DNA from: Cupriavidus sp. MP-37
GTDB lineage: Bacteria > Pseudomonadota > Gammaproteobacteria > Burkholderiales > Burkholderiaceae
Direction of reading: 5' to 3'
Length of the DNA stretch: 64,000 nt
Assembly: GCF_020618415.1 (NCBI RefSeq)
Contig: NZ_CP085345.1
Span: 2,108,001-2,172,000, forward strand
Shown: positions 41,247 through 59,443 of the stretch, piece by piece
Position numbering within the stretch: the first letter of the stretch is position 1
Layout: each line of letters begins with the position of its first letter
Program-made: the position numbers and the translations under genes
The notes under the pieces: model-generated
Databases searched by the model: none
What the model was told of the DNA's origin: nothing
The model's input: only the letters and a program-made list of their open reading frames with translations

Positions 41247-42044
41247 GTGACGGACGCACAACCCTCCCGGGCCGCGGGGCAGACCGCCATCGCGCAAGTG
41301 GATATCCACGGCGTGACGGTACATGGCAAGGACCTGAGCGAGGCCCTGATCGGCAAGACCGGCTTCACCGCTTATTTCCTGTTCCTGCTGACCGGCCGTG
41401 AGCCGGACGCAAAACTGGTGGCGGCCACCGATGCCTGCCTGGTGGCCATCGCGGAACATGGCCTGGTGCCCTCGGTGCAGGCGGCGCGCATGACGCTGGC
41501 AGCCGCGCCCGATGCCTTGCAGGGCGCCGTCGCTGCTGGTGTGCTGGGCTGCGGTTCGGTGATCCTGGGCGCATCCGAGACCGCGGGACAGATGCTGGTT
41601 GACGTGCTGGCGGGGCGCGAAGGTCGGTCGCTCGCCGAGAGCGCGAACGCGGTGGTGGCGACGGTGCGCCAGGCGCGCAAGCCGCTGCCCGGCTTCGGCC
41701 ATCCCACGCACAAGCAGGGCGATCCACGCGCGCACCGGCTGCTGGCGGTCGCACGCGAGCTGGGCATTGCCGGCGAGCACGTCGCCGCGCTGGAAGCGGT
41801 CGCCGCCGCGGTGCCGGAGCATTTCAGCAAGCCCCTGCCGCTCAATGTTTCGGGCGCGATCCCGGCGGTGCTGCTGGACGCCGGCTATCCTGCCACCGCG
41901 CTCAAGGGTGTGCCCCTGCTGGCGCGCGTCGCCAGCCTGATCGCCCACCTGCAGGAGGAACGCCGGCAGCCCATCGGCTTTATCCTGGCCAATGCCGCCG
42001 AACAGGCCATCACCCACAGCGCCACGCCGGCGCAGGCGTCATGA
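41247..42044 (+). CDS. Citryl-CoA lyase-like protein (citrate synthase superfamily)
   Basis: 265 residues from GTG 41247 (GGAG upstream), much shorter than citrate synthase (about 430) and typical of the single-domain citryl-CoA lyase group. Motifs: GCGSVILGASETAGQML, the His-containing active-site stretch PGFGHPTHKQGDPRAHRLL, and PLNVSGAIPAVLLDAG. Such lyases split citryl-CoA, or a related 3-hydroxy-3-carboxyacyl-CoA, to acetyl-CoA and a 2-oxo acid. It is the first gene of an operon with a CaiC-like ligase (4-bp overlap) and an intradiol dioxygenase, so it likely performs a final carbon-carbon cleavage in a catabolic route. The exact substrate is unknown. Confidence 0.87.
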   Translation: MTDAQPSRAAGQTAIAQVDIHGVTVHGKDLSEALIGKTGFTAYFLFLLTGREPDAKLVAATDACLVAIAEHGLVPSVQAARMTLAAAPDALQGAVAAGVLGCGSVILGASETAGQMLVDVLAGREGRSLAESANAVVATVRQARKPLPGFGHPTHKQGDPRAHRLLAVARELGIAGEHVAALEAVAAAVPEHFSKPLPLNVSGAIPAVLLDAGYPATALKGVPLLARVASLIAHLQEERRQPIGFILANAAEQAITHSATPAQAS

Positions 42045-43684
42045 GCGCGCCGGCCACCCACACCGGCGCTGACCCGATGGCGCCGCTCGACGTGCTTCGG
42101 CAATACCCGGCGCATGACTTCACGCTGACCGGCTTTCTGGCGGCCCGCGCGGCCGCGCATCCGGACAAGCCCGCCTTGCTGTTCGAAGGCGAGACCTGGA
42201 GCTATCGGCAGCTTGAGGCGCGCATCGTGCGCACCGCCGGCTGGCTGGCGCAAGCCATGCACGTGCGCCCCGGCGACCGCGTCGGCGTGCTGTCCACCAA
42301 TCATCCGTCCACGGTCGTGCTGATGTTCGCGCTGGCGCGCATCGGCGCCACCATGGTTCCGGCCAATCCGGAATACCGGCTGGATGAAGCACTCTATGTC
42401 TTCCGGCACGCGCAGATATGCGGGCTGGTGTGCGCGCCGGCCACGCTGGAAACCGGTGCGGCCATCGCCAAAACGCTGGGCGGCAACGTATGGCTGCGTG
42501 CCAACGAGCCCGGCGACCACGGCGTACCGACGCTCGAGCAATCGATGCTGGCCGATGGCGCGCAACTTGCCGGCGAGTCCGCGGACAGCCGGGACACCGC
42601 GCTGATCATCTACACCTCCGGCACCACCGGCTTTCCCAAAGGCGCGATGCATAGTCATCGCGGCTATGTGCTGACGGCCGAGGCCTTCGTGGGCCGGCTG
42701 CACTTGCAGCCCGACGAGCGTGTGATGTGCGTGATGCCGCTGTTTCACATCAACGCGCTGATGTACTCGGTCGGCGGCGCCCTGGCCTGCGGCGGCTGCC
42801 TGGTGCTGCTGCGCAGGTTCTCGGCGTCGTCGTTCTGGCGTTTCGCGGCCGAGACCGCTGCGACGGAAGTCAATCTGGTGGCTGCGGCCGGCAGCATCCT
42901 GGCCAGGCGTCCGCGCGAGGAGTTCGTGCCGGGCCATCGCATCACCAAGATGTTCATTGCGCCGCAGACGCAGGAGATGGTGCGCGTGATGAAGCAGGAG
43001 TTTCACGTGCCGCGCCTGATCGAATGCTATGGCATGACGGAGATTCCGGGCGTGATCGCCAACCCGTTCAACGGTCCGCACAAGCTCGGCACGATGGGGC
43101 TGATCTCGCCGCACCCGGACCCCGAAGTGCCGGTGCCGCAGGCCCGCATCGTCGATGACGAAGGCAATGACGTGGCGCCGGGCGGCGAGGGAGAACTGCT
43201 GATCCGCACGCCTACGCTGATGCAAGGCTATTACCGCGATGCCGAGCAGACGGCGGCCGCGTTCCGCGACGGCTGGTTCGCCACCGGCGATCTGGTGCGG
43301 CAGGACGATGACGGCTACTACGTCTTTGTTGCGCGCAAGAAGGATGTGATCCGGCGCAAGGGCGAAAACGTCTCCGGCGCCGAGCTCGATCGCATCTTCG
43401 GCGAGCACCCGGCCGTCGAGGAGGCCGCAGCCATCGGCGTGCCGGCAGAGCTGGGCGAGGAAGAAATCCTGCTGGCGGTGCAGTTCCGCTCCGGCCAGTC
43501 GGCCGGTGCTGCCGAACTGCTTGCCTGGGCACGCGGCCGCGTGGCCGCGCACAAGCTGCCGCGCTATATCGTCACCGTGGATGCCATCCCGCACACACCC
43601 ACCCACAAGCCCGCCAAGCACAAGCTGAAGGCGGACCAGACACTGCTGGCGCGCGCGGTCGACCTGTCCGCCGCCGGCCAATGA
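42041..43684 (+). CDS. AMP-forming acyl-CoA ligase (CaiC-like)
   Basis: 547 residues, with ATGA overlap to the lyase gene. Adenylation-domain motifs in order: LIIYTSGTTGFPKGAMHSHR (P-loop, about residue 188), MLW-type ECYGMTEIPGVI, DGWFATGDLVRQDDDGYY, KKDVIRRKGENVSGAELDRI, and a C-terminal Lys in PAKHKLKADQT. The enzyme activates a carboxylic acid to its CoA thioester in the cytoplasm. The sequence is nearest to crotonobetaine/carnitine-CoA ligases, and a CaiB-type CoA-transferase is encoded 4.5 kb downstream, but no carnitine dehydrogenase or racemase is present. An aromatic-derived or polycarboxylic acid is the likelier substrate. Confidence 0.92.
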   Translation: MSAPATHTGADPMAPLDVLRQYPAHDFTLTGFLAARAAAHPDKPALLFEGETWSYRQLEARIVRTAGWLAQAMHVRPGDRVGVLSTNHPSTVVLMFALARIGATMVPANPEYRLDEALYVFRHAQICGLVCAPATLETGAAIAKTLGGNVWLRANEPGDHGVPTLEQSMLADGAQLAGESADSRDTALIIYTSGTTGFPKGAMHSHRGYVLTAEAFVGRLHLQPDERVMCVMPLFHINALMYSVGGALACGGCLVLLRRFSASSFWRFAAETAATEVNLVAAAGSILARRPREEFVPGHRITKMFIAPQTQEMVRVMKQEFHVPRLIECYGMTEIPGVIANPFNGPHKLGTMGLISPHPDPEVPVPQARIVDDEGNDVAPGGEGELLIRTPTLMQGYYRDAEQTAAAFRDGWFATGDLVRQDDDGYYVFVARKKDVIRRKGENVSGAELDRIFGEHPAVEEAAAIGVPAELGEEEILLAVQFRSGQSAGAAELLAWARGRVAAHKLPRYIVTVDAIPHTPTHKPAKHKLKADQTLLARAVDLSAAGQ

Positions 43685-43705
43685 ACCAGAACAACGGAGA
43701 CAACC

Positions 43706-44545
43706 ATGAGCACTCAGGACAACTACACCCTTCAGCGCGCGCTGGCCGCCATGTGCGCCGGGGCGCCCGGTTCGGATGAAAAGCTGCAGGCGCAGTTCGG
43801 CGTGGCACTGCGGCATTTCCACGCCATGCTGGACGAGCTCCGGCTGACCGATGACCAGCTCTATGGCATTGCCGCCTGGCTGGGCAGGGTCGCCGCGCAG
43901 GATGAGCTGATCATGCTGTGCGACATGATGGGGCTGACCATGCGCGCGCTGGACCTGGCGCGTACCGACGAGCAGGCCACGCCGCAGAACGTGACCGGCC
44001 CGTTCCCCAAGGACCAGGTGCCCGAAGGCAGCAACCCCTGCCACCTGGCGACGGACGAGGAACCCGGGCAGCGGCTGGAAGTGCGCGGGCGCGTGCGGGA
44101 CGCGCGCACCGGCCAGCCGGTGCCGGGCGCGACGCTGATCGTGTGGCAGCCCAACCAGTTCGGCCGTTACGAGAACGAAGACGACTCCCAGTCCGAAGAC
44201 AACCTGCGCGGCAAGCTGCGCTGCGATGCCGAAGGTGGTTTCCAGATCTTCACCGTGCGTCCGGGCGGCTACATCATCGGGCGCGAGGATACCGAGGTCG
44301 GCGTGCTGATGAAGCGCCTGGGCCGCAACCGCCAGCGCGCGCCGCATATCCACTACCGCGTGATGCAGCCGGGATACCGCACGCTGACCTGCCAGCTCTA
44401 CTTCAAGGGCGATCCCGCCAATCCGGTCGACTGCATTTTCTCGACCATCGATGACCATATCGTCGAGGCCATGCCCCATCCGGAGCGCGACGGGCACCAG
44501 TTGGTGACGCTGGACGTGGTGATTGAGCCTGAAGCGGCAGCCTGA
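43706..44545 (+). CDS. Intradiol ring-cleavage dioxygenase (catechol/hydroxyquinol 1,2-dioxygenase family)
   Basis: 279 residues. An N-terminal helical dimerisation domain (about 20-90, LAAMCAGAPGSDEKLQAQFG) precedes the beta-sandwich catalytic domain. The four non-haem Fe(III) ligands can be placed: Tyr155 (FGRYENED), Tyr189 (RPGGYIIGRED), and His214 and His216 (RAPHIHYRV). The conserved start VTGPFPKDQVPEGSNP and GQPVPGATLIVWQPNQFG are also present. It should open an ortho-dihydroxylated ring between the hydroxyls, giving a muconate or maleylacetate type product. The insert NEDDSQSEDNLRG differs from classical catechol enzymes, so the substrate may be unusual. Third gene of the lyase-ligase-dioxygenase operon; an IclR gene converges 14 bp on. 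Confidence 0.9.
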   Translation: MSTQDNYTLQRALAAMCAGAPGSDEKLQAQFGVALRHFHAMLDELRLTDDQLYGIAAWLGRVAAQDELIMLCDMMGLTMRALDLARTDEQATPQNVTGPFPKDQVPEGSNPCHLATDEEPGQRLEVRGRVRDARTGQPVPGATLIVWQPNQFGRYENEDDSQSEDNLRGKLRCDAEGGFQIFTVRPGGYIIGREDTEVGVLMKRLGRNRQRAPHIHYRVMQPGYRTLTCQLYFKGDPANPVDCIFSTIDDHIVEAMPHPERDGHQLVTLDVVIEPEAAA

Positions 44546-44559
44546 ACGATGTGCGCGGC

Positions 44560-45426
44560 TCAGTAGGCCGCCGTGATGGAGTGTGCCAGCGCGGGCGCGC
44601 GCCGGATCGCGTCCTCGATGGCCGCCGCCGCTTCGCGCAGCGCCGGCAGACGCGTGGCAACCAGCTCCTCGGGGCTGGCGCGCTCGGTCTCGGTGGAGCA
44701 GTTGATGGCGGCGATCACGCGCCGCTGGGGATCGCGCACGGGCACGGCGATCGACAGCACGCCGAGTTCGAGCTGGCCGTTCTGGATTGCATAGCCCTGT
44801 TCGAGCGTGCGTGCCAGCGCGGCGCGCAGCGAATCCGCGTCGCTGAGCGTCATCGGCGTGAATTTCTGGAACGGCGCGCGGTCCAGGACCTTTTTCTGCT
44901 GCGGCTTGGTCGCATGCGCCAGCAAGGCCAGGCCGAGCGAGGTGCAATGGACCGGCAGCCGGTAGCCGACCGAGGCGCGGAACGCGATGCGGCGCTGGCT
45001 GGGCACATGCGCCAGGTAGACCACGCTGTCGCCGTCGAGGACGGCGAACGAGACTGAATCGCGGAAGCGCTCGGCCACTTCCTGCAGGAAGGGCTGGACG
45101 ATGTCGCGCAGGTTCATCGAACTGAGGAAGGCGGCGCCCAGCGACAGCACCTTGGGCAGCAGCACGAAGCGCCGCCCGTTGGCGCCGATGTAGCCCAGCG
45201 CCTGCAGCGTCAGCAGCGCGCGGCGCGCGCTGGCGGGCGTCATGCCGGTGGCCTGGGCCACCTCGCTCAGCGTCATTTCAGGCATGGCGTCGGTAAATGC
45301 CTGGATCACCGCCAGCCCGCGCGCCAGCGCCGCGACGTAATCGCGGTGGCCTTCTTCGAGCTTGGGCGGGGCGTCCTGGCCGGCGGGGGCGGTGGCAGGG
45401 TCGGGCGAATCAGCGGCAGAGGTCAT
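44560..45426 (-). CDS. IclR family transcriptional regulator (PcaR/PobR-like)
   Basis: 288 residues. N-terminal winged helix-turn-helix YVAALARGLAVIQAFTDAMP, LSEVAQATGMTPASARRALL, TLQALGYIGANGRRFVLLP, followed by the GAF-like IclR effector domain (DGDSVVYLAHVPSQRRIAF, YRLPVHCTSLGLALLA, ELGVLSIAVPVRDPQRRVIA). It closely follows the pattern of PcaR, PobR and PcaU regulators of aromatic catabolism, which bind aromatic acids or pathway intermediates. It converges with the dioxygenase operon and is divergent from a LysR gene (77 bp apart). It likely controls one or both halves of the catabolic island. Confidence 0.93.
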   Translation of the reverse strand: MTSAADSPDPATAPAGQDAPPKLEEGHRDYVAALARGLAVIQAFTDAMPEMTLSEVAQATGMTPASARRALLTLQALGYIGANGRRFVLLPKVLSLGAAFLSSMNLRDIVQPFLQEVAERFRDSVSFAVLDGDSVVYLAHVPSQRRIAFRASVGYRLPVHCTSLGLALLAHATKPQQKKVLDRAPFQKFTPMTLSDADSLRAALARTLEQGYAIQNGQLELGVLSIAVPVRDPQRRVIAAINCSTETERASPEELVATRLPALREAAAAIEDAIRRAPALAHSITAAY

Positions 45427-45503
45427 GCGTGCATTTTAGCCGCAACGGCCGGGCCGGAACAAAGGGGACGGCGGCAAGGCCGGCGTCCGGGAGACAGATC
45501 CAC

Positions 45504-46391
45504 ATGAGACTCGATCCTACCTCGTTGCGCCTCTTTGTCTGCGTGACCGAAGAGGGCTCCATCGCCGCCACGGCGGAGCGTACGCACCTGGCCGCGGCCG
45601 CGGTCAGCAAGCGCATCAGCGAGCTGGAGCAAGGGCTGGGCACGCCCCTGCTCCGGCGCAGCAACAAGGGCGTGGAGCCGACCACGGCGGGACTCGAGCT
45701 GGTCCATCTTGCGCGCGGCGTGCTGAACGACCTCGACGACATCGTCGTTCGCATGCGCGATTACGGCGGCGGCCTGCGCGGGCAGGTCAGGGTGTTCGCC
45801 AACATCTCCGCCATCACGCAGTTCCTGCCGGCGCAGCTCAAGTCGTTCCTGGCGGACTACCCGCGTGTCGACGTGCATCTCGATGAGCGGATTTCCACCG
45901 CCATCGTGCGTGCCGTGGCCGAGAACGCCGCCGACATAGGCATCTTCACGGCGGGCGCCTTCGGCGCCGAACTGGAGACCTTTCCTTACCGGTGCGACGA
46001 GCTGGTGGTGGTCGTGCCCCGCGGGCATCCGCTGGCGGCGCAGCAGGGCGTGACGATCCGCGAAATGCTGGACCATGACCTGATCAGCCTGCATGCCGGC
46101 AGCCAGATCCATCTGCAGCTGGTGAGGGCGGCCAGCGAGGCGGGCCGCGCGTTCAAGCCGCGCATCCATGTGCCGGGCTACGACGCGCTGTGCCTGATGG
46201 TGCAGGCGGGGCTGGGGCTGGGGATCCTGCCGCGGTCCAGCGCGGCGCCTTACCAGGACACGCTCGGCATCCGTGCCGTCCGCCTGGACGAGCCCTGGGC
46301 CGCGCGCCAGCTGGTGATCGGCGTGCGCGCCTACGACAGCCTGTCGGCCGTGGCACGGCTGCTGGTCGACCGCTTGCGCGAGGCGGCATAG
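45504..46391 (+). CDS. LysR family transcriptional regulator
   Basis: 295 residues from ATG 45504; the upstream open frame overlaps the divergent IclR gene and is not used. N-terminus MRLDPTSLRLFVCVTEEGSI, AATAERTHLAAAAVSKRISE, LEQGLGTPLLRRSNKGVEPT, a normal LysR helix-turn-helix, then the effector-binding domain from about residue 90 (VRVFANISAITQFLPAQLKS). It is followed by a perfect 11-bp hairpin and then the CoA-transferase operon on the same strand, so it is the best local candidate to activate that operon. Confidence 0.93.
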   Translation: MRLDPTSLRLFVCVTEEGSIAATAERTHLAAAAVSKRISELEQGLGTPLLRRSNKGVEPTTAGLELVHLARGVLNDLDDIVVRMRDYGGGLRGQVRVFANISAITQFLPAQLKSFLADYPRVDVHLDERISTAIVRAVAENAADIGIFTAGAFGAELETFPYRCDELVVVVPRGHPLAAQQGVTIREMLDHDLISLHAGSQIHLQLVRAASEAGRAFKPRIHVPGYDALCLMVQAGLGLGILPRSSAAPYQDTLGIRAVRLDEPWAARQLVIGVRAYDSLSAVARLLVDRLREAA

Positions 46392-46514: not shown

Positions 46515-47726
46515 ATGGTCAACGAAGCGAACAAGGAAAAGATGCCGCTGCAGGGCGTGCGCGTGGTGGAGCTGGGATCGCTGATCGCCGGCCCGTATGC
46601 CGGCGGCCTGCTGGCGCAGTTCGGCGCCGAGGTGGTGAAGATCGAGTCGCCCGGCGAAGGCGATCCGTTGCGCAAATGGCGCAAGCTGTATGAGGGCACC
46701 TCGCTGTGGTGGTACAGCCAGAGCCGCAACAAGAAGTCCATGACGCTGGACCTGCGCAGCTCGCAAGGGCAGGAGATCGTGCGCAAGCTGGTGGCCGACG
46801 CCGACATCGTGATCGAGAACTTCCGCCCCGGCACGCTCGAGAAATGGGGCCTCGGCTGGGAGGACCTGCGCCAGGTGAATCCGGCGCTGATCATGGTGCG
46901 CATCTCCGGGTACGGCCAGACCGGTCCGTACAAGGACCGTCCCGGCTTTGCCGCAATCGCCGAATCGATGGGCGGGCTGCGCTACGTCAGCGGCTATCCC
47001 GACCGGCCGCCGGTGCGCTCCGGCGTCAGCATCGGCGACACGCTGGCCTCGCTGTACGGCGTGATCGGCGCGCTGCTGGCGATGCATCACCTGCGCAACA
47101 ACAACGGCGAAGGGCAATATGTGGACGTGGCGCTGTACGAATCGGTGTTTGCGGTGATGGAAAGCCTGGTGCCCGAGTTCACCAAGTTCGGCCATGTGCG
47201 GGAGCGCTCCGGCGCCAGCTTGCCGGGCATCTCGCCGTCCAACACCTATCCCTGCAAGGACGGGCAGTATGTGATCATCGCCGGCAACGGCGATGCGATC
47301 TTCCGGCGCTTCATGACAGCGATCGGGCGCGATGACCTGGGCCAGGATCCGCGGCTGGCGCACAACGACGGGCGAGTGCAGCACAACGCCATGCTTGATG
47401 ACGCCATCGCTGCGTGGACCACCGCGCACGAACTCGACACCGTGCTGGCGACGCTGGAAGCCGCAGCGGTGCCGTGTGGGCGCATCTACACCGCCGAGGA
47501 TATCTGCGGCGATCGCCACTATCGCGCACGCGACATGATCGAGTCGCACCAGCTGCCGGACGGCTCGCCGCTGGCGCTGTCCGGCATCGTGCCCAGGCTC
47601 AGCGCAACGCCTGGACGCACCAACTGGATCGGCCCGGCACTGGGCGAGCACACCGAAGAAATCCTGGCGGGCATCGGCATTGCCGGCGCCGAATTCCGCG
47701 CGCTGCGCGAGGCCGGCGTGGTTTGA
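46515..47726 (+). CDS. CaiB/BaiF family CoA-transferase (class III)
   Basis: 403 residues from ATG 46515, which has CAGGAGCAG upstream; an ATG at 46476 opens the same frame without a ribosome site. Family III motifs: GVRVVELGSLIAGPYAGGLL, GAEVVKIESPGEGDPLRKW, SRNKKSMTLDLRSSQGQEIV, RPGTLEKWGLGW, and VSIGDTLASLYGVIGALLAM holding the catalytic Asp. It moves CoA between carboxylic acids. It is the first gene of the long operon with HMG-CoA-lyase-like, LeuC/LeuD-like and transport genes, so it probably activates the hydrated intermediate before cleavage. Confidence 0.93.
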   Translation: MVNEANKEKMPLQGVRVVELGSLIAGPYAGGLLAQFGAEVVKIESPGEGDPLRKWRKLYEGTSLWWYSQSRNKKSMTLDLRSSQGQEIVRKLVADADIVIENFRPGTLEKWGLGWEDLRQVNPALIMVRISGYGQTGPYKDRPGFAAIAESMGGLRYVSGYPDRPPVRSGVSIGDTLASLYGVIGALLAMHHLRNNNGEGQYVDVALYESVFAVMESLVPEFTKFGHVRERSGASLPGISPSNTYPCKDGQYVIIAGNGDAIFRRFMTAIGRDDLGQDPRLAHNDGRVQHNAMLDDAIAAWTTAHELDTVLATLEAAAVPCGRIYTAEDICGDRHYRARDMIESHQLPDGSPLALSGIVPRLSATPGRTNWIGPALGEHTEEILAGIGIAGAEFRALREAGVV

Positions 47727-47767: not shown

Positions 47768-48712
47768 ATGTGGCTTCCCCAGGCCCCGCGGCGCGTCCGC
47801 ATCAATGAAGTGTCCGTGCGCGATGGCTTCCAGATCGAGCCGGAATTCGTCCCCACCGAACAGAAGATCGCGCTGATCGACCGGCTGTCGGAAACCGGGC
47901 TCGCGCGGATCGAGATCACCTCGTTCGTCTCGCCCAGGGCCATTCCAAACCTGCGCGATGCCGAGGCGGTGGCCAAGCGCATCCGGCGCCATCCGGAGGT
48001 GGTCTATACCGCGCTGGTACCGAACGCGCGCGGCTGCGAACGCGCGCTCGAGTGCGGCCTGGACGAGATCAACCTCGTCATGTCGGCCAGCGAGACGCAC
48101 AACCTGGCCAATATGCGCATGACCTGCGAACAGTCGCTGGCGCAATTCCGCGACGTGATGCAGCTGGCGCGCAGCGGCGGCCTCGCCGTCAGCGGCTGCG
48201 TGGCCACCGCATTCGGCTGCCCGTTCGAGGGCGCGGTGGCGCCCGAGCGCGTGCAGTGGGCGGCGGGCCGTTACCTGGAGCTGGGCATGGACAGCATCAC
48301 GCTGGCCGATACCACCGGCATGGCAGATCCGCGGCAGGTGAGCGAGCTGGTCGAGGCGTTCCGCGGCTGGTTCCCGGGCGTACCGCTGACCCTGCATTTC
48401 CACAATACGCGCGGCATGGGGCTGGCCAACGTGCTGGCCGGGCTGGCCGCGGGCGTGGACAGTTTCGATGCCTCGCTGGGCGGGCTGGGCGGCTGCCCGT
48501 TCGCACCGGGCGCCACCGGCAACATCTGCACCGAAGACCTGGTGCACATGCTCGAGTCGGCCGGCATCGACACCGGCGTCGACCTGGACCGGCTGCTGGG
48601 CGCGGCGCGCGACCTGCCGGCGCTGGTCGGACACGATATTTCCGGGCAGGTGGTGAAGGCCGGCAAGCGCACCGAGCTGCATCCGGTGCCGGAGTGGGTG
48701 GGCGCGCGCTAG
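47768..48712 (+). CDS. Hydroxymethylglutaryl-CoA lyase-like protein
   Basis: 314 residues. HMGL-like TIM barrel: [20 protein letters not shown] (metal-binding Arg-Asp), [20 protein letters not shown], the metal His pair in [18 protein letters not shown], and the catalytic Cys in [15 protein letters not shown]. The family splits 3-hydroxy-3-methylglutaryl-CoA to acetyl-CoA and acetoacetate, or related 3-hydroxyacyl-CoAs such as citramalyl-type substrates. It follows the CoA-transferase by 41 bp. As an isovalerate/leucine operon is absent, the substrate here is more likely a CoA ester produced by the local pathway. Confidence 0.92.
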
Positions 48713-51980: not shown

Positions 51981-52919
51981 ATGGAAGACGTGAAGGATGG
52001 CGGCACCGGGCAATCGCCGCGGATCGGCTGGATCGGGATCGGTGCCATGGGCCGCCCGATGTGTCTGAACCTGATCAAGGCGGGACATGTCCTGACGGTG
52101 TTCGACAGGGTGCCCACGCAGTGCGAGGCGGTGGTCGCGGCGGGCGCCCGTACCGCGCGGTCCGTGCAGGAGCTGGTAGCGCAGTCCGATGTGGTGTTCT
52201 CGACCATCTTCGACGACGCCGGCCTGCGCGCGCTGTTCCTGTCCGACGGCGGTGCCGGTGACGCGGCCAGTGCGGGCCAGATCTTTGTCGACATGAGCAC
52301 GGTGTCCCCGCAAGCCTCGGCCGAGGTGGCCGCGGCGTTGGCCCAGCGCGGCGCCAGCTGGCTGCGGGCGCCGGTGTCGGGCACGGTGTCGCTGGCCGCC
52401 AGCGCGCAGCTGAGTTGCTTCGTGTCAGGGCCGCGTCAGGCCTTCGACGCGGTGCAGCCGCTGCTGGCCCGCCTGTCCGCGCGCCAGTCTTATGTCGGCG
52501 CTGCAGATGAGGCGCGGGTGATCAAGCTGATGATCAACATGATGGTGTTCATGAGCACCGCGGTGATCGGCGAGGGGCTGGCTTTCGGCGCGCGCGCGGG
52601 GCTGGACCGCGCGCTGATGATCGACGCGATCAACGACAGCATCGTCGGCAGTCCGCACTACCGCACCAAGGCTGACAAGCTCAAGCAGCGGGAGTACGGC
52701 GCGGTCGGGCCGATCTCGCTGGTGGTGAAGGACCTGGACATGGCTTTGGACGTGGCACGCGACAACGTGGTCCCGCTGCCGATCTCGTCGCTGGTACGCC
52801 AGTACCTGGCGATGATGCAGCACCGCGACCTCGGTCATCTCGATATTGCTGCGCTGGCCGATGTGCCGGCGTGGACCGGTGCGCCGGGCGGCACCGATGC
52901 ACCAATCAATGCCAACTGA
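51981..52919 (+). CDS. NAD(P)-dependent oxidoreductase, 3-hydroxyisobutyrate dehydrogenase family
   Basis: 312 residues from ATG 51981 (GGAGAAGGAAAGG upstream). Rossmann start IGWIGIGAMGRPMCLNLIKA, linker FVDMSTVSPQASAEVAAAL, substrate loop RAPVSGTVSLAASAQLSCFV, and helical C-terminal domain with the catalytic Lys in VIKLMINMMVFMS. The family oxidises or reduces beta-hydroxy acids such as 3-hydroxyisobutyrate, tartronate semialdehyde or 2-(hydroxymethyl)glutarate. In this operon it would oxidise or reduce a hydroxy acid made from the ring-cleavage product. The N-terminal 12 residues are extra. Confidence 0.9.
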   Translation: MEDVKDGGTGQSPRIGWIGIGAMGRPMCLNLIKAGHVLTVFDRVPTQCEAVVAAGARTARSVQELVAQSDVVFSTIFDDAGLRALFLSDGGAGDAASAGQIFVDMSTVSPQASAEVAAALAQRGASWLRAPVSGTVSLAASAQLSCFVSGPRQAFDAVQPLLARLSARQSYVGAADEARVIKLMINMMVFMSTAVIGEGLAFGARAGLDRALMIDAINDSIVGSPHYRTKADKLKQREYGAVGPISLVVKDLDMALDVARDNVVPLPISSLVRQYLAMMQHRDLGHLDIAALADVPAWTGAPGGTDAPINAN

Positions 52920-52973: not shown

Positions 52974-54134
52974 ATGAAACGCAAGCAAACTACCCGGGCG
53001 CGGCACGGCGCCCTGTGCGCCGCGATGGCGGCGCTGCCCCTGGTGCTGGCGTCGCCGCCGGCGCTGGCCCAGGCCAGGTCCGCTGCGGAACCGGTGCGCA
53101 TCGGCGGCCTGTTCTCAACCACCGGCGGCCTGGCGGCCGTGGGGCAGGCCGAGCGTGAAGGCGCGCTGCTGGCGCAGAAGGTCATCAATGCCCGCGGCGG
53201 CATCAACGGACGGCCGCTGGAGATGATGGTCGAGGACGACGGCTCCAGCCCGGATTCGGCGGTGGCCAAGGCCAACGCGCTGCTGCATACCCACAAGGTG
53301 CGCGCCATCATCGGCCCGTCCGGCATTGCGCAGACGGTGGCCATCGGCGGCATCACCCAGGCGCAGAAGGTGCCGCTGTTCGCCTTTTCGGGGCTGGGGC
53401 CGGCAGTGGAGCGGGAGCGCACTTGCGTGTTCCACCTGACGCCATCGCAGGAACTGAATGCGCGCGCGGTGCTGGCCTATGCACGCGACAACGGCCTCAA
53501 GCGCGTCGGCGTGCTGCATGACTCGGGCTACGGGCAGGTGGTGTGGAGCAGCATGAAGACGCTGGACCGCCAGTACGGTGTCAGCTTTGTGCAGGTGGAG
53601 AAGTTCGAGATCGCGGCGACGGACGTGACCACCCAGGCGGCGAAGCTCAAGGCCGCGGCACCGGATGCCATCGTTGTCATCTCCACCTCGCCGGCACCCT
53701 TCCGCAACGTGCGCCAGCTGAAGATCGGCGCGCCGATCATCGCGGTGCACGGCACCGCCACCTACGAGACCGTCAAGGGCATGGGCGAGGCCGCCGACAA
53801 CATCATCCATCCGGAGTTCATCGTCTCCGAAGATCCGCTGCCCGCGCAGAAGGAGTTTGTCGAGGCTTACCGCAAGGAATACGGCAAGTTGCCCAAGCAT
53901 TTCGCCGCCGTGGGCTGGGATGCGGTGATGGCGCTGGCCAATGGCCTGAAGACCGCGGGCGCGGACGCCGCCGGCGACAAGCTCTGCGGCGCCCTGCGCC
54001 GGCCTTACCAGGGCGTCACCACCGGCTACGACTTCGCCGCGCCCGACATGGGCGGCATGACGCTGGCCGGCTTTACCTACTCGAAGCTGCAGAAGGGCCA
54101 GTTCGTGCGGCTGGACTACAAGCCCCGGCCGTAG
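52974..54134 (+). CDS. ABC transporter substrate-binding protein, branched-chain (Liv) type
   Basis: 386 residues. Signal peptide near residues 10-33 (LCAAMAALPLVLASPPALA), then the type-I periplasmic-binding fold: VRIGGLFSTTGGLAAVGQAE, GALLAQKVINARGGINGRPL, MVEDDGSSPDSAVAKANALL and the hinge IIGPSGIAQTVAIGG. GGATGGAG serves as ribosome site. It starts the five-gene set binding protein, two permeases and two ATPases. Relatives import aromatic acids as often as amino acids, fitting the catabolic context. Confidence 0.93.
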   Translation: MKRKQTTRARHGALCAAMAALPLVLASPPALAQARSAAEPVRIGGLFSTTGGLAAVGQAEREGALLAQKVINARGGINGRPLEMMVEDDGSSPDSAVAKANALLHTHKVRAIIGPSGIAQTVAIGGITQAQKVPLFAFSGLGPAVERERTCVFHLTPSQELNARAVLAYARDNGLKRVGVLHDSGYGQVVWSSMKTLDRQYGVSFVQVEKFEIAATDVTTQAAKLKAAAPDAIVVISTSPAPFRNVRQLKIGAPIIAVHGTATYETVKGMGEAADNIIHPEFIVSEDPLPAQKEFVEAYRKEYGKLPKHFAAVGWDAVMALANGLKTAGADAAGDKLCGALRRPYQGVTTGYDFAAPDMGGMTLAGFTYSKLQKGQFVRLDYKPRP

Positions 54135-54164
54135 CCGGCGGCGGTCGCGGAAAAGGATCCGGCT

Positions 54165-55052
54165 ATGTCTGACACCCTCATTTTCCAGGCGGTCCTGTCG
54201 GGGATCACCAATGGCTTCGTCTACGCGCTGATCGGCGTGGGCATGGCCATCATCTTCAAGGGCACCCGCATCGTCAATGCCATGCAGGGCGAGTTCGCGG
54301 TCATCGGCGCGCTGGTTGCCGTGTTTGCGCTCAACGCGCTGGGCTTGCCATATCCCGCGGCGATTGCCGGCGGCATCGTCGCCGGCGCTGCCAGCGGGCT
54401 GCTCATCGACGTGCTGTTCGTCCGGCCGATGATGCGCCGCGGCGCCGGCGAAGAGAGCTTCCTGCTGCTGACCATCGGCCTGGCGTTCGCGCTGTCGGCC
54501 GCGGCGCTGTACTTCGGCGGCCGCGATTCGCACCTGCTGCCGGCCATCGGCGGCGAAGGCGTGGTCGAGTTGCTGGGCGCGACCGCGCCGATGCATGCGC
54601 TGGCGCTGGTGGGGATCTCGGTGCTGCTGGTGCTGGCGTTGCGCCTGTTCTATACGAAGACCCTCGTAGGCCTGGCCATGACCGCGGCGTCGCTCGACCC
54701 GGACGGGGCTACCACCACCGGCATCAGCGTGCGGCGCATGCGCACGCTGACCTTTCTGCTCGGCGGCGGCTTCGGCGCGGTGGCGGGGGTGCTGGTGACA
54801 CCGCTGCTGTCGATGAACTACCAGATGGGCATCGGCCTCACGCTGAAGGGCTTTGCCGCGGCCATCCTCGGCGGACTGGGCAATCCGCTGGGCGCGGTGG
54901 CGGGGGGACTGCTGCTGGGGCTGACCGAGTCGCTCGCGGTGGTGGGCTTCCCGTCGGGCTATCGCGACGTGGTCGCGCTGTCGATCCTGGTCGTCATCAT
55001 GATTCTGCTTCCCAACGGCGTGCTGGGCCGGGCGGGACGCAAGGGAGGATAA
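54165..55052 (+). CDS. ABC transporter permease, LivH type
   Basis: 295 residues with about eight membrane helices. Family features: FQAVLSGITNGFVYALIGVG, FKGTRIVNAMQGEFAVIGAL, RPMMRRGAGEESFLLLTIGL, the cytoplasmic coupling stretch TTTGISVRRMRTLTFLLGGG, and LKGFAAAILGGLGNPLGAVA. It forms the inner-membrane channel with the LivM-type protein whose gene starts 2 bp after its stop. Confidence 0.93.
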   Translation: MSDTLIFQAVLSGITNGFVYALIGVGMAIIFKGTRIVNAMQGEFAVIGALVAVFALNALGLPYPAAIAGGIVAGAASGLLIDVLFVRPMMRRGAGEESFLLLTIGLAFALSAAALYFGGRDSHLLPAIGGEGVVELLGATAPMHALALVGISVLLVLALRLFYTKTLVGLAMTAASLDPDGATTTGISVRRMRTLTFLLGGGFGAVAGVLVTPLLSMNYQMGIGLTLKGFAAAILGGLGNPLGAVAGGLLLGLTESLAVVGFPSGYRDVVALSILVVIMILLPNGVLGRAGRKGG

Positions 55053-55054
55053 GC

Positions 55055-56029
55055 ATGAATATGTCATCGAATGCCGCGCGCGTGCTGCTGTTGGCCGTGG
55101 TGGTGTGGGCGCTGGCCGGGCAACTGCTGTCGCGGCACTACATCGACCTGCTCAACTTCGCCGCCATCCTTGCCGTGGGCGGCCTGGGCGTGGGCCTGCT
55201 GCTCGGCCAGTGCGGCATCGTCAACCTGGCACAGGCCGCGTTCTACGGCATCGGCGCCTATGCCTCGGCATACTGCACCACGGCGCTTGGCTGGCCGGCG
55301 CTGGCCGGTGCCGCAGCCGGCCTGCTGGTCAGCGCGGCGCTGGCCGCCGCGATCGGCGTGCCGGTGCTGCGCCTGGGCGGCTTTTTCCTGGCGCTGGCGA
55401 CGCTGGCGGTGGGGAGCATCGCCAATGTGCTGTTCTTCGAGTGGGACTGGCTCACGGGCGGCACGCTGGGCATCGGCGGCATCCCCAAGCTGTCGCTGTT
55501 CGGCTTTGCGCTGGACACGCCGGAGCGCTATTACTACTTCGCCTGGCCGCTGGTGGCGCTGCTGCTGTGGCTGGTGGACAACCTCGTCAAGGGCCGGCCG
55601 GGCCTTGCGATGCGGGCCATGCGCGATGCCGCGCCGGCCGCGCAGGTGCTCGGCATCGACATGCACCGGCTGAAGACCACGATGTTCGTGGCCTCGGCCA
55701 TGCTCGGCTCGCTGGCCGGGACTTTGTTCGCCCACTATGTCTCGTTCGTCAGCGTGCAGAGCTTCACGGTCGAGCGCTCGATCGTGTTCCTGCTGGTGCC
55801 GGTGGCCGCCGGGGCGCGATCCACCTATGGCGTGGTGCTGGGCGCGTTGTTCGTGTCGCTGGTGCCGGAACTGTTGAGCGGCCTGGGAGATTTCCACCAG
55901 GTGCTGTTCGGCGCGGTGCTGGTGCTGGTGGTCACGCTGATGCCAGGAGGGATCACGGGTGGCATCGCCGGCATGCTCAGGCGCATGGAGACCCGCGCGC
56001 ATGCCCGCGTGCTGAAGGAGGCGCGATGA
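55055..56029 (+). CDS. ABC transporter permease, LivM type
   Basis: 324 residues. LivM features: LNFAAILAVGGLGVGLLLGQ, GIVNLAQAAFYGIGAYASAY, GVPVLRLGGFFLALATLAVG, the coupling region MRAMRDAAPAAQVLGIDMHR and GARSTYGVVLGALFVSLVPE. Pairs with the LivH-type permease. Its stop overlaps the ATG of the LivG-type ATPase (ATGA). Confidence 0.93.
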   Translation: MNMSSNAARVLLLAVVVWALAGQLLSRHYIDLLNFAAILAVGGLGVGLLLGQCGIVNLAQAAFYGIGAYASAYCTTALGWPALAGAAAGLLVSAALAAAIGVPVLRLGGFFLALATLAVGSIANVLFFEWDWLTGGTLGIGGIPKLSLFGFALDTPERYYYFAWPLVALLLWLVDNLVKGRPGLAMRAMRDAAPAAQVLGIDMHRLKTTMFVASAMLGSLAGTLFAHYVSFVSVQSFTVERSIVFLLVPVAAGARSTYGVVLGALFVSLVPELLSGLGDFHQVLFGAVLVLVVTLMPGGITGGIAGMLRRMETRAHARVLKEAR

Positions 56030-56832
56030 ATACCGCCGTCGCTGATTTCAGCACCCGCGCCGAGGGCGCGGCCAGCGCGCAGGCGCTGCTGCGGGTCGAA
56101 GCGATCGCGCACAGCTTTGGCGGGCTGGACGTGCTGCGCAACGTCGCGTTCGAAGTGCCAGCTGGCCGTATCGTCGGCCTGATCGGGCCAAACGGCAGTG
56201 GCAAGACTACCTGCTTCAACATCATCTCGGGATTCTTGCGTCCCAGGGGCGGCAAGGTTCTGCTGGCGGGCCGGGACATCACCGCAGACACCGTGCAGCA
56301 GCGCAGCCGCGCCGGGCTGGTGCGCACCTTCCAGACGCCGCAGGTGTTCGAGCACATGACGGTGCTGGAGAACCTGATGGCCGGCTGCCACAAGGCCACG
56401 CGCAGCGGCGTGTGGCACGCGATGCTGCGCTCGCCGCTGTCGCGCCGCGAGCTGCAGGGGATGCATGAGGCGGCGCTGGCGTGCGCGCGGAAGTTCGGCC
56501 TGGAAAGCCTTCTGCAGCACCAGGCCGGCACGCTGCCGGCGGGCCAGCGGCGCATTGTCGAGCTGGCGCGCGCGTGCATCGGCGAACCGGGCCTGCTGTT
56601 GCTGGACGAACCGTCGTCGGGGCTGAACAGCGAAGAGATCGAACTGCTGCGCGCATGGATCCTGCGGCTGAACCGCGAAGGCATGACCATCCTGCTGGTG
56701 TCGCATGACATGGGTCTGATGACGATCTGCGACACCGCCCACGTCCTGTATTACGGCGAGATCATTGCCAGCGGCACGCTGGAACAGGTGCAGGCGGACC
56801 CGCGCGTGCGCGAAGCTTATCTGGGAGTGTGA
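56026..56832 (+). CDS. ABC transporter ATP-binding protein, LivG type
   Basis: 268 residues. Walker A LIGPNGSGKTT, Q-loop LVRTFQTPQVFEHMTVLENL, a variant signature LPAGQRRIVELARA (most ABC proteins have LSGGQ; LivG proteins vary here), Walker B GLLLLDEPSSGLN and the H-loop LLVSHDMGLM. One of two ATPases driving the transporter. The first 25 residues precede the ABC core. The ATG overlaps the permease stop by 4 bp. Confidence 0.93.
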   Translation: MNTAVADFSTRAEGAASAQALLRVEAIAHSFGGLDVLRNVAFEVPAGRIVGLIGPNGSGKTTCFNIISGFLRPRGGKVLLAGRDITADTVQQRSRAGLVRTFQTPQVFEHMTVLENLMAGCHKATRSGVWHAMLRSPLSRRELQGMHEAALACARKFGLESLLQHQAGTLPAGQRRIVELARACIGEPGLLLLDEPSSGLNSEEIELLRAWILRLNREGMTILLVSHDMGLMTICDTAHVLYYGEIIASGTLEQVQADPRVREAYLGV

Positions 56833-56834
56833 CC

Positions 56835-57554
56835 ATGCTGAAAGTAAAAGGCCTGCGCGCCGAATACGGCGCCGTGCCCGTACTGCACGACATCGATATC
56901 GAAGTCGGGCCCGGCGAAGCAGTGGCCATCGTCGGGGCCAACGGCGCGGGCAAGACCGCGCTGGTGCGCACGCTGTCGGGGTTGTTGCGGCCGATGGCGG
57001 GCAGCATCGTCAAGGAAGGCGTTGAGATTGGCCACGTGCCGGGGCATCGGCGCTTCGAGCATGGCATTGCCGTCGTGCTGGAGAACCGCAACCTGTTCGG
57101 CGAACTGTCGGTGCGCGACAACCTGCGGCTTGCCGAGCATGCGGGCAGGCGCGCCCGCGGCGGCGCGCTGCGCTTCACCCATGACGAAGTCTGCAAGTTG
57201 TTCCCGCTGCTGCGGGAGCGTGGCGACACCCAGGTTGGCCTGCTCTCGGGCGGCCAGCAGCAGATGGTGGCGATCGCGCGGGCGCTGCTGCTGCAGCCCG
57301 ACCTGCTGATCATGGACGAGCTGACCACCGGCCTCGCCCCGCGCATCGTCAAGGAAATCCTTGCCGTGCTGAACCAGCTGCGCGAACGCGGCCTGAGCAT
57401 CGTTCTGGTGGAGCAGAGCGTGGCCATTGCCGCGGAGATGACGGATCGCGCCTATGTGCTGTCGGTGGGGCGCGTGATCCACGAAGTCCGGCGCGGGGAG
57501 TGGCAGGCCCTGCTGAACGACAAGACGCTGGTGAAGGCGTACTTGCATGGTTGA
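56835..57554 (+). CDS. ABC transporter ATP-binding protein, LivF type
   Basis: 239 residues from ATG 56835; a GTG 6 bases earlier overlaps the previous stop. Walker A IVGANGAGKTALVRT, Q-loop IAVVLENRNLFGELSVRDNL (Gln replaced by Glu in this class), signature LLSGGQQQMVAIARALLLQ, Walker B LLIMDELTTGL with Glu, and H-loop-position VLVEQSVAIA, where LivF-type proteins normally have Gln instead of His. It is the second ATPase of the transporter. The start of the NTF2-like gene lies at or just past its end. Confidence 0.92.
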   Translation: MLKVKGLRAEYGAVPVLHDIDIEVGPGEAVAIVGANGAGKTALVRTLSGLLRPMAGSIVKEGVEIGHVPGHRRFEHGIAVVLENRNLFGELSVRDNLRLAEHAGRRARGGALRFTHDEVCKLFPLLRERGDTQVGLLSGGQQQMVAIARALLLQPDLLIMDELTTGLAPRIVKEILAVLNQLRERGLSIVLVEQSVAIAAEMTDRAYVLSVGRVIHEVRRGEWQALLNDKTLVKAYLHG

Positions 57555-57564
57555 GGAAACGGAC

Positions 57565-57975
57565 ATGAGCCATCCGGCAACGATTGCCAGGGGATACACG
57601 CAAGATCTCGCTGCGCTCAGGCAGGCGGACGCCTCGCGATACCGCGCGATGCTCGCAGGTGATATCGCCGCGCTGGAAAAGCTGCTTGCCGATGAGCTGT
57701 CCTATACCCACTCGTCGGCATTGCAAGAGGGCAAGCAGGCATACCTGGCATCGCTGCGCAGCGGGCGGGTGCGCTACCTGCAGGCGTCGGTGCAGGACGT
57801 GGGCCAGGAGATCTACGACGACATCGCCGTGATGCAGGGAAAGGCCCTGCTGATCGCGATCGTCGATGGGGTGGAGCGGACGCTGGACAACCGCTTTCTC
57901 AGCGTATGGAAGCGGCAGGACGGCGCGTGGCAGATGGTGGCGTGGGCCTCGACGCCAATCCCGCCTGCGCCTTAG
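57565..57975 (+). CDS. NTF2-like (SnoaL/DUF4440) family protein
   Basis: 136 residues from ATG 57565, which has GAGGAA upstream; an ATG at 57547 overlaps the end of the LivF-type gene. Cone-fold features: RYRAMLAGDIAALEKLLADE, LSYTHSSALQEGKQAYLASL, and the last strands RFLSVWKRQDGAWQMVAWAS. Members include isomerases, hydratases and small ring-modifying enzymes, and many are uncharacterised. Its position inside the catabolic operon makes a small-molecule enzyme likely, but no catalytic assignment is possible. Confidence 0.82.
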   Translation: MSHPATIARGYTQDLAALRQADASRYRAMLAGDIAALEKLLADELSYTHSSALQEGKQAYLASLRSGRVRYLQASVQDVGQEIYDDIAVMQGKALLIAIVDGVERTLDNRFLSVWKRQDGAWQMVAWASTPIPPAP

Positions 57976-58019
57976 CCGGGAATTTCAACTGCCATAACAA
58001 TAAAGGTGGGGAGACACAC

Positions 58020-59111
58020 GTGAATTTGAGCAAGTTCCTGGCCGGGACGGCACTGTCAGTACCGCTGGCAGCCGCAGCGCAGTCGGTCACGCTGTATGGC
58101 GTGTTTGACACCGGCGTAGAGTATGTCAACAACGTCGGCCCATCCAAGGATGGCGTGGCGCGCGTGCCGGTGCTGACGGGCACGGTGCCGTCGCGCTGGG
58201 GCCTGCGCGGCAGTGAAGACCTGGGCGGCGGCCTGAAGAGCGTGTTCGTGCTGGAATCAGGCTTTGCGCCGGATTCCGGGCAGGCCAACCAGGGCGGTCG
58301 GCTGTTCGGGCGCCAGGCGTTCGTGGGCCTGTCAGGCAACTGGGGGCAGGTGGCGCTGGGGCGGCAGTACACCATGCTGTTCTGGGCCAATCTGGATACG
58401 GACATTCTCGGGCCAAACATCTATGGCTCGGCTTCGCTTGACAGTTATATCCCGAACTCACGCGCCGACAATGCGGTCTCGTACAAGGGCACCTTCGGCG
58501 GCCTGACGGTGGGCGCAACCTACAGTTTCGGGCGCGACGCCGTCAATGCCGGACCGAGTCCGGCGGGGACCAATTGCGCCGGCGAGAATCCTGCGGACCG
58601 TAATGCCTGTCGGGAGTGGTCCGCACTGGTGATGTATGAAACCAAGTGGTGGGGCGTGTCGGCCAGCTACGATTCATTGCGCGGCGGGCCCGGCGCCTTT
58701 GCCGGCCTGACCAGCAGCGGCCTCTCAGACGACCGCCTGTCGCTCGGCGGCTATATGCTGCTGTCGCGCACCAAGCTTGGCCTGGGCGTGATCCGCCGCG
58801 ACAACGAGGCCAGCCCGACGCCGCGCTCCGACCTTTGGTACGGCGGTATAGCCTACGACATCACGCCGGCTCTGACGCTGGCCGGACAGGTCTACTACCT
58901 GCGCTACCACCACAGCGACAACAAGGCGATGCTGTATGCGCTGCGCGGATCGTACGCCTTCAGCAAGCGCACCTCGGTGTATGCCACCGCCGGGTTTATC
59001 GACAACGGCGGCCAGTTGGCGATGTCTGTCAGCGCCGGCCAGGCTGGTTCGAACCCGCCGCCGGGGGCGAACCAGTTCGGCACCATGATTGGCATCAAGC
59101 ACGTGTTCTGA
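58020..59111 (+). CDS. Gram-negative porin (OmpC-like, Burkholderiales type)
   Basis: 363 residues from GTG 58020 with GGGGAG upstream. Short signal peptide FLAGTALSVPLAAAAQ, first strand SVTLYGVFDTGVEYVNNVG, the family motif PSRWGLRGSEDLGGGLKSVF, LFGRQAFVGLSGNWGQVALG and terminal strand MIGIKHVF ending in Phe. A trimeric 16-strand outer-membrane pore. Placement after the ABC genes suggests that it admits the pathway substrate. Unusually short signal peptide; a longer upstream start was not evident. Confidence 0.92.
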   Translation: MNLSKFLAGTALSVPLAAAAQSVTLYGVFDTGVEYVNNVGPSKDGVARVPVLTGTVPSRWGLRGSEDLGGGLKSVFVLESGFAPDSGQANQGGRLFGRQAFVGLSGNWGQVALGRQYTMLFWANLDTDILGPNIYGSASLDSYIPNSRADNAVSYKGTFGGLTVGATYSFGRDAVNAGPSPAGTNCAGENPADRNACREWSALVMYETKWWGVSASYDSLRGGPGAFAGLTSSGLSDDRLSLGGYMLLSRTKLGLGVIRRDNEASPTPRSDLWYGGIAYDITPALTLAGQVYYLRYHHSDNKAMLYALRGSYAFSKRTSVYATAGFIDNGGQLAMSVSAGQAGSNPPPGANQFGTMIGIKHVF

Positions 59112-59149
59112 CGCCCACCGGCGCCGGACTCTCAGATGGAGGATGGGAG

Positions 59150-59443
59150 ATGTACTTCATCATTCATTGCCTGGACCATGCCGATGCCTTGCCGCGCCGG
59201 CTGGAGAGCTACGATGCGCACCGCGCCTATCTGGACGCGGCCGCGGTGCAGTGCGTAGTATGCGGGCCGTTGATGTCTGAGGATGGCGAACAGATGATCG
59301 GCAGCCTGTTCCTGGTGCGTGCGCAGGACAAGCAGCAAGTCGTTGACTTCAACCGGGGCGATCCGTTTCACCAGGCAGGAGTGTGGCAGCACGTGCATAT
59401 CCATCCTTTCGTGATGCGGGTCGATAACCGCGACCCGGCGTGA
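59150..59443 (+). CDS. YciI family protein
   Basis: 97 residues from ATG 59150 with GGAGGATGGGAG upstream. Ferredoxin-like alpha/beta fold: MYFIIHCLDHADALPRRLES, YDAHRAYLDAAAVQCVVCGP, LFLVRAQDKQQVVDFNRGDP, FHQAGVWQHVHIHPFVMR. The conserved His in the Asp-His pair near residue 24 and the late His cluster are present. YciI-like proteins are related in fold to muconolactone isomerase, and some act on aromatic ring-cleavage products or dehalogenate, so a step in the local pathway is possible. Last gene of the catabolic operon. Confidence 0.88.
   Translation: MYFIIHCLDHADALPRRLESYDAHRAYLDAAAVQCVVCGPLMSEDGEQMIGSLFLVRAQDKQQVVDFNRGDPFHQAGVWQHVHIHPFVMRVDNRDPA

Follow-up and report, generated by a model that had tools for sequence, protein, structure and literature searches.

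We analysed a 64-kb window of the Cupriavidus sp. MP-37 genome (6.1 Mb, two contigs; the window lies on contig C2, 2108001-2172000) and describe a gene island, at positions 41247..59443 of this window, that combines an intradiol ring-cleavage dioxygenase with an acyl-CoA ligase, a citryl-CoA-lyase-like (CCL-like) protein and a LeuCD-type hydro-lyase. The core of the island, which consists of the CCL-like protein, the ligase, the dioxygenase, an IclR regulator, LeuC, LeuD and usually a TctC-type receptor, is inherited as a set, and the island is very probably one catabolic unit. We propose that, once the ring has been opened by intradiol cleavage, CoA chemistry stands in for the usual reductase or lactone steps, and we infer each step of the following route, to which as a whole we assign a probability of about one in three. 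The dioxygenase would open a hydroxyquinol-like, possibly alkylated, ring to give (alkyl)maleylacetate; the ligase would convert this product to its CoA thioester, a beta-oxo-acyl-CoA; the CCL-like protein would cleave the thioester to acetyl-CoA and (alkyl)maleate; and LeuCD would hydrate the latter, giving (alkyl)malate in the form of malate or citramalate. For alkylated substrates, an optional family III (CaiB-like) CoA-transferase and an optional HMG-CoA-lyase-like (HMGL) enzyme would then take citramalate to pyruvate and acetyl-CoA, and an aceE paralog, where present, would oxidise the pyruvate.

The core genes are co-inherited across the genus, which argues that the set is not a product of chance. 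Among 60 sampled genus genomes, a CCL-like ortholog (at least 77% identity) occurs in 15. The dioxygenase was sought in 398 genomes of the family, including 59 of the 60 genus genomes (G766, 54% complete, was left out), and its orthologs were found in 15 of them, all from one genus and the same 15 that hold the CCL-like protein. The LeuC ortholog (at least 83%) is present in 14 of these 15 genomes and in none of the other 45 (Fisher 9e-13); the fifteenth is a draft genome, G385, in which LeuC lies in pieces (locus L012). We read the locus in all 15 genomes over 10-64 kb each, so that genes lying farther downstream than the end of a stretch may have been overlooked. All 15 loci contain the CCL-like protein, the ligase and the dioxygenase, and 14 also contain IclR, LeuC and LeuD together with the ligase and dioxygenase, while TctC is found in 13. 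In G390, the contig stops inside the dioxygenase gene and LeuC is located on a different contig.

Other parts of the island are accessory, namely CaiB and HMGL, a 3-hydroxyisobutyrate-dehydrogenase-like (HIBADH) protein, a Liv-type transporter and a porin. CaiB is present in nine of the 15 loci, and the copy in C. metallidurans CH34, where no HMGL match was found, is reduced to 207 of 403 residues. HMGL, the LysR regulator, HIBADH and the Liv receptor each occur in eight loci; HMGL orthologs (at least 81%) are found in 8 of the 15 genomes with the CCL-like protein and in 0 of the 45 others. The aceE paralog is present in six loci (intact in the window, N-1, CH34, SHC and laharis; a 40-residue fragment in G301), a YciI protein in four, and the porin in the window alone. 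HIBADH was not seen in the 20-31 kb read of G138, G249, G202 (SHC) and CH34, and in C. necator N-1 only the receptor and ATPase pieces of the Liv transporter were found. The interval between IclR and LeuC varies in content, holding LysR-CaiB-HMGL, CaiB-HMGL, LysR alone, the CaiB remnant or nothing. The patchy presence of CaiB and HMGL is as expected of a step required for some substrates only. The reading of the first-pass annotation, in which these genes form one island, is thus supported as regards the two co-inherited blocks and refined as regards the accessory genes.

This distribution also bears on the alternative that the island comprises two adjacent pathways with different substrates, one formed by the CCL-like protein, ligase and dioxygenase, and the other by LeuCD and the genes that follow, with or without CaiB-HMGL. 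The island does contain two regulators, a LysR-CaiB-HMGL-TctC unit stands alone elsewhere in the genome (L198, C1 about 1,638-1,642 kb), HMGL homologs of ~53-62% identity are found throughout the genus, and the CCL-like protein occurs with an activating enzyme and TctC in loci that have no recognised dioxygenase or LeuC. We nevertheless regard a division as improbable, given the presence of the LeuC ortholog in 14 of the 15 CCL-like genomes and in none of the 45 others, and the position of IclR between the two blocks, where it is directly divergent from leuC in G166 and G249. LeuC and the CCL-like protein also recur together in Burkholderia glumae, Caballeronia, G1010 and G002, yet this count (4/45) is not clearly above that of control stretches (1/40).

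The gene inventory is given in the table below. The interval 41247..59443 spans precisely from the start of the CCL-like gene to the end of the YciI gene; the start of the ligase gene overlaps the stop of the CCL-like gene by 4 bases, and CaiB through YciI are successive genes on one strand with short gaps. A promoter-like stretch upstream of the CCL-like gene is conserved in the window and 13 relatives, most of which carry TTGCG..TAGCGC. A short TGCGnnTA-like element also precedes IclR (45426-45504), and we considered a shared operator for both blocks; the resemblance was too weak and was not used.

Genes of the island and the adjacent aceE paralog, with window coordinates, family assignment and occurrence
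Feature	Position	Strand	Family	Occurrence
CCL-like protein	41247..42044	+	Pfam Citrate_synt; NF004868 subfamily	
AMP-forming acyl-CoA ligase (CaiC-like)	42041..43684	+	Pfam AMP-binding	15/15 loci
Intradiol ring-cleavage dioxygenase, own subfamily	43706..44545	+	Pfam Dioxygenase_C	
IclR regulator	44560..45426	-	Pfam IclR	14/15 loci
LysR regulator, variable	45504..46391	+	Pfam LysR	8/15 loci
Family III (CaiB-like) CoA-transferase, optional	46515..47726	+	Pfam CoA_transf_3	9/15 loci
HMGL enzyme, optional	47768..48712	+	Pfam HMGL-like	ortholog in 8/60 genus genomes
LeuC-like hydro-lyase large subunit	48735..50150	+	Pfam Aconitase	
LeuD-like hydro-lyase small subunit	50172..50810	+	Pfam Aconitase_C	14/15 loci
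Orphan TctC-type carboxylate receptor	50866..51858	+	Pfam TctC	13/15 loci
HIBADH-like beta-hydroxyacid dehydrogenase family protein, accessory	51981..52919	+	Pfam NAD_binding_2/11	
Liv-type ABC transporter (receptor, two permeases, two ATPases), accessory	52974..57554	+	Pfam	
DUF4440/SnoaL-like small protein	57565..57975	+	Pfam	
Porin	58020..59111	+	Pfam Porin_4	window only among 15 loci
YciI-family small protein	59150..59443	+	Pfam YCII	
Homodimeric pyruvate dehydrogenase E1 (aceE) paralog	59600..62287	+	Pfam	

A Pfam scan of 22 proteins of the window recovered every gene that the first-pass annotation had named, and bore out its claim that muconate cycloisomerase, muconolactone isomerase, enol-lactonase and maleylacetate reductase are missing: no match was found among these proteins to the muconate cycloisomerase, muconolactone isomerase, iron alcohol dehydrogenase (iron-ADH) or alpha/beta-hydrolase families, and tblastn with the iron-ADH of the genome itself (E up to 1e-3) found no homolog in the 64-kb window. 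What had been described as two carboxylate uptake systems is instead one orphan TctC receptor, the scanned proteins including no TctA or TctB to complete a tripartite tricarboxylate transporter, and one ABC system of the branched-chain-amino-acid type. The closest described routes that begin with intradiol cleavage differ from the island. The hydroxyquinol pathway (hydroxyquinol 1,2-dioxygenase and maleylacetate reductase) shares an intradiol dioxygenase of the same superfamily, but neither the window nor a related stretch of B. glumae, whose dioxygenase is clearly of the hydroxyquinol type, contains an iron-ADH; ligase or CaiB, the CCL-like protein and LeuCD are found instead. The catechol ortho (beta-ketoadipate) pathway shares intradiol cleavage and a PcaR/PobR-like regulator, but the island has none of its cycloisomerase, muconolactone isomerase and enol-lactonase, and the window dioxygenase scores far below the catechol 1,2-dioxygenase model TIGR02439 (115.9 bits, cut-off 392).

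The CCL-like protein belongs to NF004868 (337 bits, cut-off 193), a family present in 17 of 398 sampled phylum genomes, and its structure model (pLDDT 91.4) best matches the fold of the citryl-CoA lyase of Hydrogenobacter thermophilus, 6hxp (TM 0.83/0.86, 32% identity). In contrast to 6hxp, however, the His of the AHGG motif is replaced by Ile and the Asp of the NVDG motif by Ser. We take these two positions (H274eq and D375eq) to be the residues that form the CoA enolate. Among 32 aligned CCL-like relatives, 31 lack both His and Asp and have I/F/V and S/N/T instead; the exception is a distant member from G767 (L179), which keeps both. The PDB title of 6znw, ATP-citrate lyase D541A holding citryl-CoA, fits the importance of this Asp, if it is the same residue. 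Because two residues taken as catalytic are replaced, the name 'citryl-CoA lyase' is doubtful and describes a fold rather than a function, and the retro-Claisen or aldol cleavage that the first-pass annotation ascribed to this enzyme cannot be assumed. By the same alignment, H320eq, R329eq and R401eq are kept in 32/32 relatives and H238eq in 31/32, the exception again being L179. These we equate with the positions at which citrate synthase (H320, R329, R401, H238) binds the 2-oxo or hydroxy acid.

The kept residues are relevant to a second route, in which hydration would come first. In this alternative, LeuCD would hydrate the substituted maleate unit of a ring-cleavage product such as the 3-carboxymuconate formed from a carboxylated catechol. 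A CoA ester of the resulting 2-substituted malate would then be made by the ligase or CaiB, and the CCL-like protein, like HMGL, would cleave it as a 2-substituted-malyl-CoA lyase to acetyl-CoA and a 2-oxo acid; CaiB and HMGL would be redundant with, or stereo-complementary to, this first pair of enzymes. On chemical grounds, routes from protocatechuate and gallate were also weighed, and protocatechuate is kept as an example here. What separates the two routes is the place of CoA activation and cleavage relative to LeuCD. Enzymes of the LeuCD type use maleate-type 1,2-dicarboxylates as substrates, and an order with cleavage after LeuCD is favoured by the conserved hydroxy-acid-binding positions, by HMGL as an alternative lyase, and by aceE paralogs beside several such clusters, which fit a 2-oxo-acid product. 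Additionally, IclR scores just under the cut-off of the PcaR/PcaU/PobR subfamily (282.5 bits, cut-off 284.75), and G002 contains LeuC with the CCL-like protein, CaiB and TctC, and no recognised dioxygenase. The opposite order is favoured by stretches in G762, G953 and Variovorax that combine a dioxygenase, CaiB and the CCL-like protein and in which no LeuCD was found, since these would lack the hydratase. Moreover, hydroxyquinol-type dioxygenases, such as that of B. glumae and, by similarity, those of Variovorax and G953, usually yield a product without a substituted-maleate unit, and the replacement of H274eq and D375eq in 31/32 relatives opposes acetyl-CoA enolate chemistry here as well. We consider hydration first nearly as likely as the route with CoA activation first. 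It comes nearest to the order suggested in the first-pass annotation, with LeuCD acting before CoA activation, which is one of two orders that the data allow, the LeuCD-free stretches leaning towards a CCL-like step that does not need LeuCD. Neither this alternative nor the route with CoA activation first explains well how a citrate-synthase fold would work with H274eq and D375eq replaced.

The window dioxygenase is a true member of the intradiol family. Y155, Y189, H214 and H216, the iron ligands, and R211, the catalytic Arg of the family, are invariant in 16 of 16 sequences. A structure model of it (pLDDT 71.4) was too poor for a fold search. An initial profile (A2) favoured hydroxyquinol enzymes but included divergent paralogs; the ortholog-only profile that replaced it (A3) showed no preference, and an assignment of the substrate from sequence was dropped.

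With regard to LeuCD, the window LeuC passes the LeuC model cut-off (737 bits, cut-off 560) and is 69-70% identical to the LeuC of the leuCDB operon of the genome. In a tree of 36 rows, in which G196 is counted twice, it groups with the LeuCs of G196, G202 (the second copy, next to aceE), G002 and G291 in a clade of 19 (support 0.887), although its nearest relative within the clade is unsupported (0.192), and the 16 leuCDB-type rows are separate (support 1.0). A role in leucine biosynthesis was rejected on the basis of this tree and of the co-inheritance described above. G196 provides a parallel for the lower part of the route. Its cassette of CaiB, HMGL, LeuC and LeuD (71%, 61%, 70% and 67% identical to the window proteins) is preceded by a P450, a ferredoxin, a FAH-family hydrolase, a gentisate 1,2-dioxygenase (501 bits, cut-off 442) and Liv genes. 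Older biochemistry has alkylgentisates degraded through citraconate and citramalate to C2 and C3 units. Compared with this alkylgentisate pathway, the window has an intradiol dioxygenase, a ligase and the CCL-like protein in place of gentisate dioxygenase and hydrolase. Since the same CaiB-HMGL-LeuC-LeuD cassette is found in both, the comparison suggests that the ligase and CCL-like protein may occupy the slot held by the FAH-family hydrolase in G196. Additional homodimeric aceE genes were observed near several CCL-like or LeuCD clusters, namely in the window, at L057 and L058 of the same genome (C2 about 1,787 kb), at L183 (G026) and at L162 (G202).

CaiB and HMGL also resemble enzymes of C5-dicarboxylic acid metabolism. 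The closest PDB match of HMGL is 6nds (365 bits), a structure with 3-methylmalate bound, and CaiB matches the succinyl-CoA:mesaconate transferase model at 254.9 bits, under its cut-off of 700. The island could on these grounds be a cluster for citraconate or citramalate utilisation, of the itaconate/mesaconate kind, with an incidental dioxygenase. This seems very unlikely to us, as CaiB and HMGL are dispensable whereas the dioxygenase, with its iron ligands in place, is retained in 15/15 loci. Ich and Ccl, the enzymes of itaconate degradation, we take to belong to MaoC- and CitE-type Pfam families, and none of the scanned window proteins matches either. Described itaconate/mesaconate clusters of Cupriavidus, Pseudomonas and Burkholderia do share CoA transfer and the cleavage of citramalyl-CoA to acetyl-CoA and pyruvate with the role proposed for CaiB and HMGL; they differ in using itaconyl-CoA hydratase and Ccl, and the passages of these papers contain no mention of LeuCD or an intradiol dioxygenase (PMC12290011, PMC4682846).

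A co-occurrence search, suggested in the first-pass annotation, finds the gene set not only in the 15 genus genomes but, in comparable forms, elsewhere. A plasmid operon of B. glumae encodes LysR, an intradiol dioxygenase, the CCL-like protein, an MhpA-type flavin hydroxylase (560 bits, cut-off 390), CaiB, LeuC, LeuD and a TIM barrel. Compared with three entries that carry the name hydroxyquinol dioxygenase, its dioxygenase reaches 298, 260 and 228 bits; the scores with PnpC, an unnamed intradiol enzyme and a catechol 1,2-dioxygenase are 255, 258 and 111 bits. Variovorax SPNA7 and G953 combine CaiB, the CCL-like protein and TctC with dioxygenases 58% and 55% identical to that of B. glumae, and G762 combines the CCL-like protein, CaiB, a dioxygenase and a TRAP transporter. 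In none of these four stretches was an iron-ADH homolog found, and LeuC and LeuD were found in B. glumae only. Sets of dioxygenase, CoA activation and CCL-like protein recur, once with LeuCD, with no gene of the maleylacetate-reductase type nearby. LeuC and LeuD also accompany the CCL-like protein and CaiB in Caballeronia SBC1 and in G1010, which has LeuD, LeuC, a WrbA quinone reductase (327 bits, cut-off 141) and the CCL-like protein, with CaiB and IclR divergent and, next past these, a likely TonB receptor, a VOC protein and a hydrolase. WrbA-type quinone reductases are found in four CCL-like loci (G1010, G881, G1087 and Niveispirillum). On plasmids of Martelella, Sinorhizobium, Aminobacter and Rhizobium, the CCL-like protein and CaiB occur with a LigB-type dioxygenase. 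A form in which a LigB-type extradiol dioxygenase adjoins the CCL-like protein and CaiB is seen at L190, L199, L200, L204 and L208, some of these loci having a TRAP or Liv transporter. YciI proteins stand beside the CCL-like protein in Martelella and Rhizobium SSA_523 too. A further form combines CCL-like protein and CaiB with VOC and UROD-family proteins (L185, L186, L187, L191 and L192, from five genomes that belong to a single family not in the class of the window), some of its loci also carrying IclR and WrbA quinone reductase. At L059 of the window's own genome (C1 about 3,366 kb) and L193 (G817), the CCL-like protein and a ligase lie beside an alpha/beta hydrolase and a VOC-like protein, which has no Pfam match and is 77% identical between the two genomes. 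On a plasmid of Agrobacterium deltaense (L202), an IS66 element is located immediately upstream of the CCL-like gene.

We compared the surroundings of 45 CCL-like loci, all outside the window orthologs, with 40 control stretches of 20 kb from arbitrary places in 20 of the genomes, plasmids excluded. The 45 comprise 2 paralogs in the genome itself, 6 of 8 other genomes from the class search, 12 places in genus genomes selected out of a larger number, the full 14 new genomes that the phylum search added and 11 of the 43 plasmid records, and are phylogenetically non-independent. CaiB or a ligase lies within 3 kb of the CCL-like gene in 36/45 loci against 4/40 controls, and the tie to CoA activation is firm. 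A ring-cleaving homolog lies within 8 kb, or up to the end of the stretch, in 22/45 against 0/40; six of these 22 loci had supplied library queries (16/39 without them), and VOC matches are homologs of VOC proteins that need not be dioxygenases, so that a tie to ring cleavage, partly seeded by queries, is likely. TctC is found in 18/45 loci against 5/40. Outside the genus, the tie to LeuCD consists of the four cases of B. glumae, Caballeronia, G1010 and G002.

Several observations weigh against the five-step route. Acetyl-CoA enolate chemistry of the known mechanism is hard to reconcile with the loss of the two presumed catalytic residues, and we know of no precedent for beta-oxo-acyl-CoA cleavage by a citrate-synthase fold. 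The action of LeuCD on maleate or citraconate would follow from its gene neighbourhood only. Whether the hydroxyquinol reading, drawn from B. glumae, also holds for the window is uncertain, because the window dioxygenase is 26-31% identical to the other dioxygenases compared and its ortholog profile is undecided (PnpC 97.6, catechol 92.7, hydroxyquinol 92.1 bits). The island contains no hydroxylase. Moreover, a second intradiol dioxygenase gene of the genome adjoins an iron-ADH gene (C2 about 2,288-2,290 kb), which on our reading, rather than by a model call, encodes a maleylacetate reductase, and beside this pair a second hydroxyquinol route would be redundant. In the neighbourhood counts, intradiol dioxygenases alone (4/45 against 0/40, p 0.12) and LeuC are not clearly enriched, and in 23/45 loci no gene recognised as ring-cleaving lies within 8 kb; these include 5 of the 6 class-search loci read and many LysR/CCL/CaiB/TctC operons. 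Finally, VOC-type neighbours may not be dioxygenases: in the itaconate cluster of P. aeruginosa, PA0880, annotated as a ring-cleaving dioxygenase, is proposed to be a lactonase in passages of PMC12290011.

The first-pass annotation had not recognised the gene combination as a described one, and we found no account of it in the open-access PMC literature; subscription journals lay outside this search, so that absence from print is unproven. According to the CH34 genome paper, the combination of citryl-CoA synthetase and citryl-CoA lyase is not encoded in this genome, and passages of a CH34 aromatic reconstruction name catA1 and catA2 as catechol 1,2-dioxygenases; the literature used also includes PMC8879955, PMC2864759 and PMC2842291. 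Judging from the related sets in other bacteria, the island may represent a hitherto unstudied version of a pathway type that is already known. In its widest and more doubtful form, CCL-like proteins without the two enolising residues would act with a CoA ligase or CaiB to cleave CoA thioesters of ring-fission products, releasing acetyl-CoA and leaving a maleate-type acid, following ring opening by intradiol and LigB-type enzymes, and perhaps by VOC-type ones, in several proteobacterial groups. If true, this would add a CoA-dependent lower route to aromatic catabolism, provide a role for 'citryl-CoA lyase' genes that adjoin ring-cleaving and CoA-activating genes, and correct an annotation for which the active site offers no support.

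Elsewhere in the window, at about 15595-34000, translations read by eye indicate genes for a fimbrial protein and an usher-like protein beside two large sensor kinases and response regulators.

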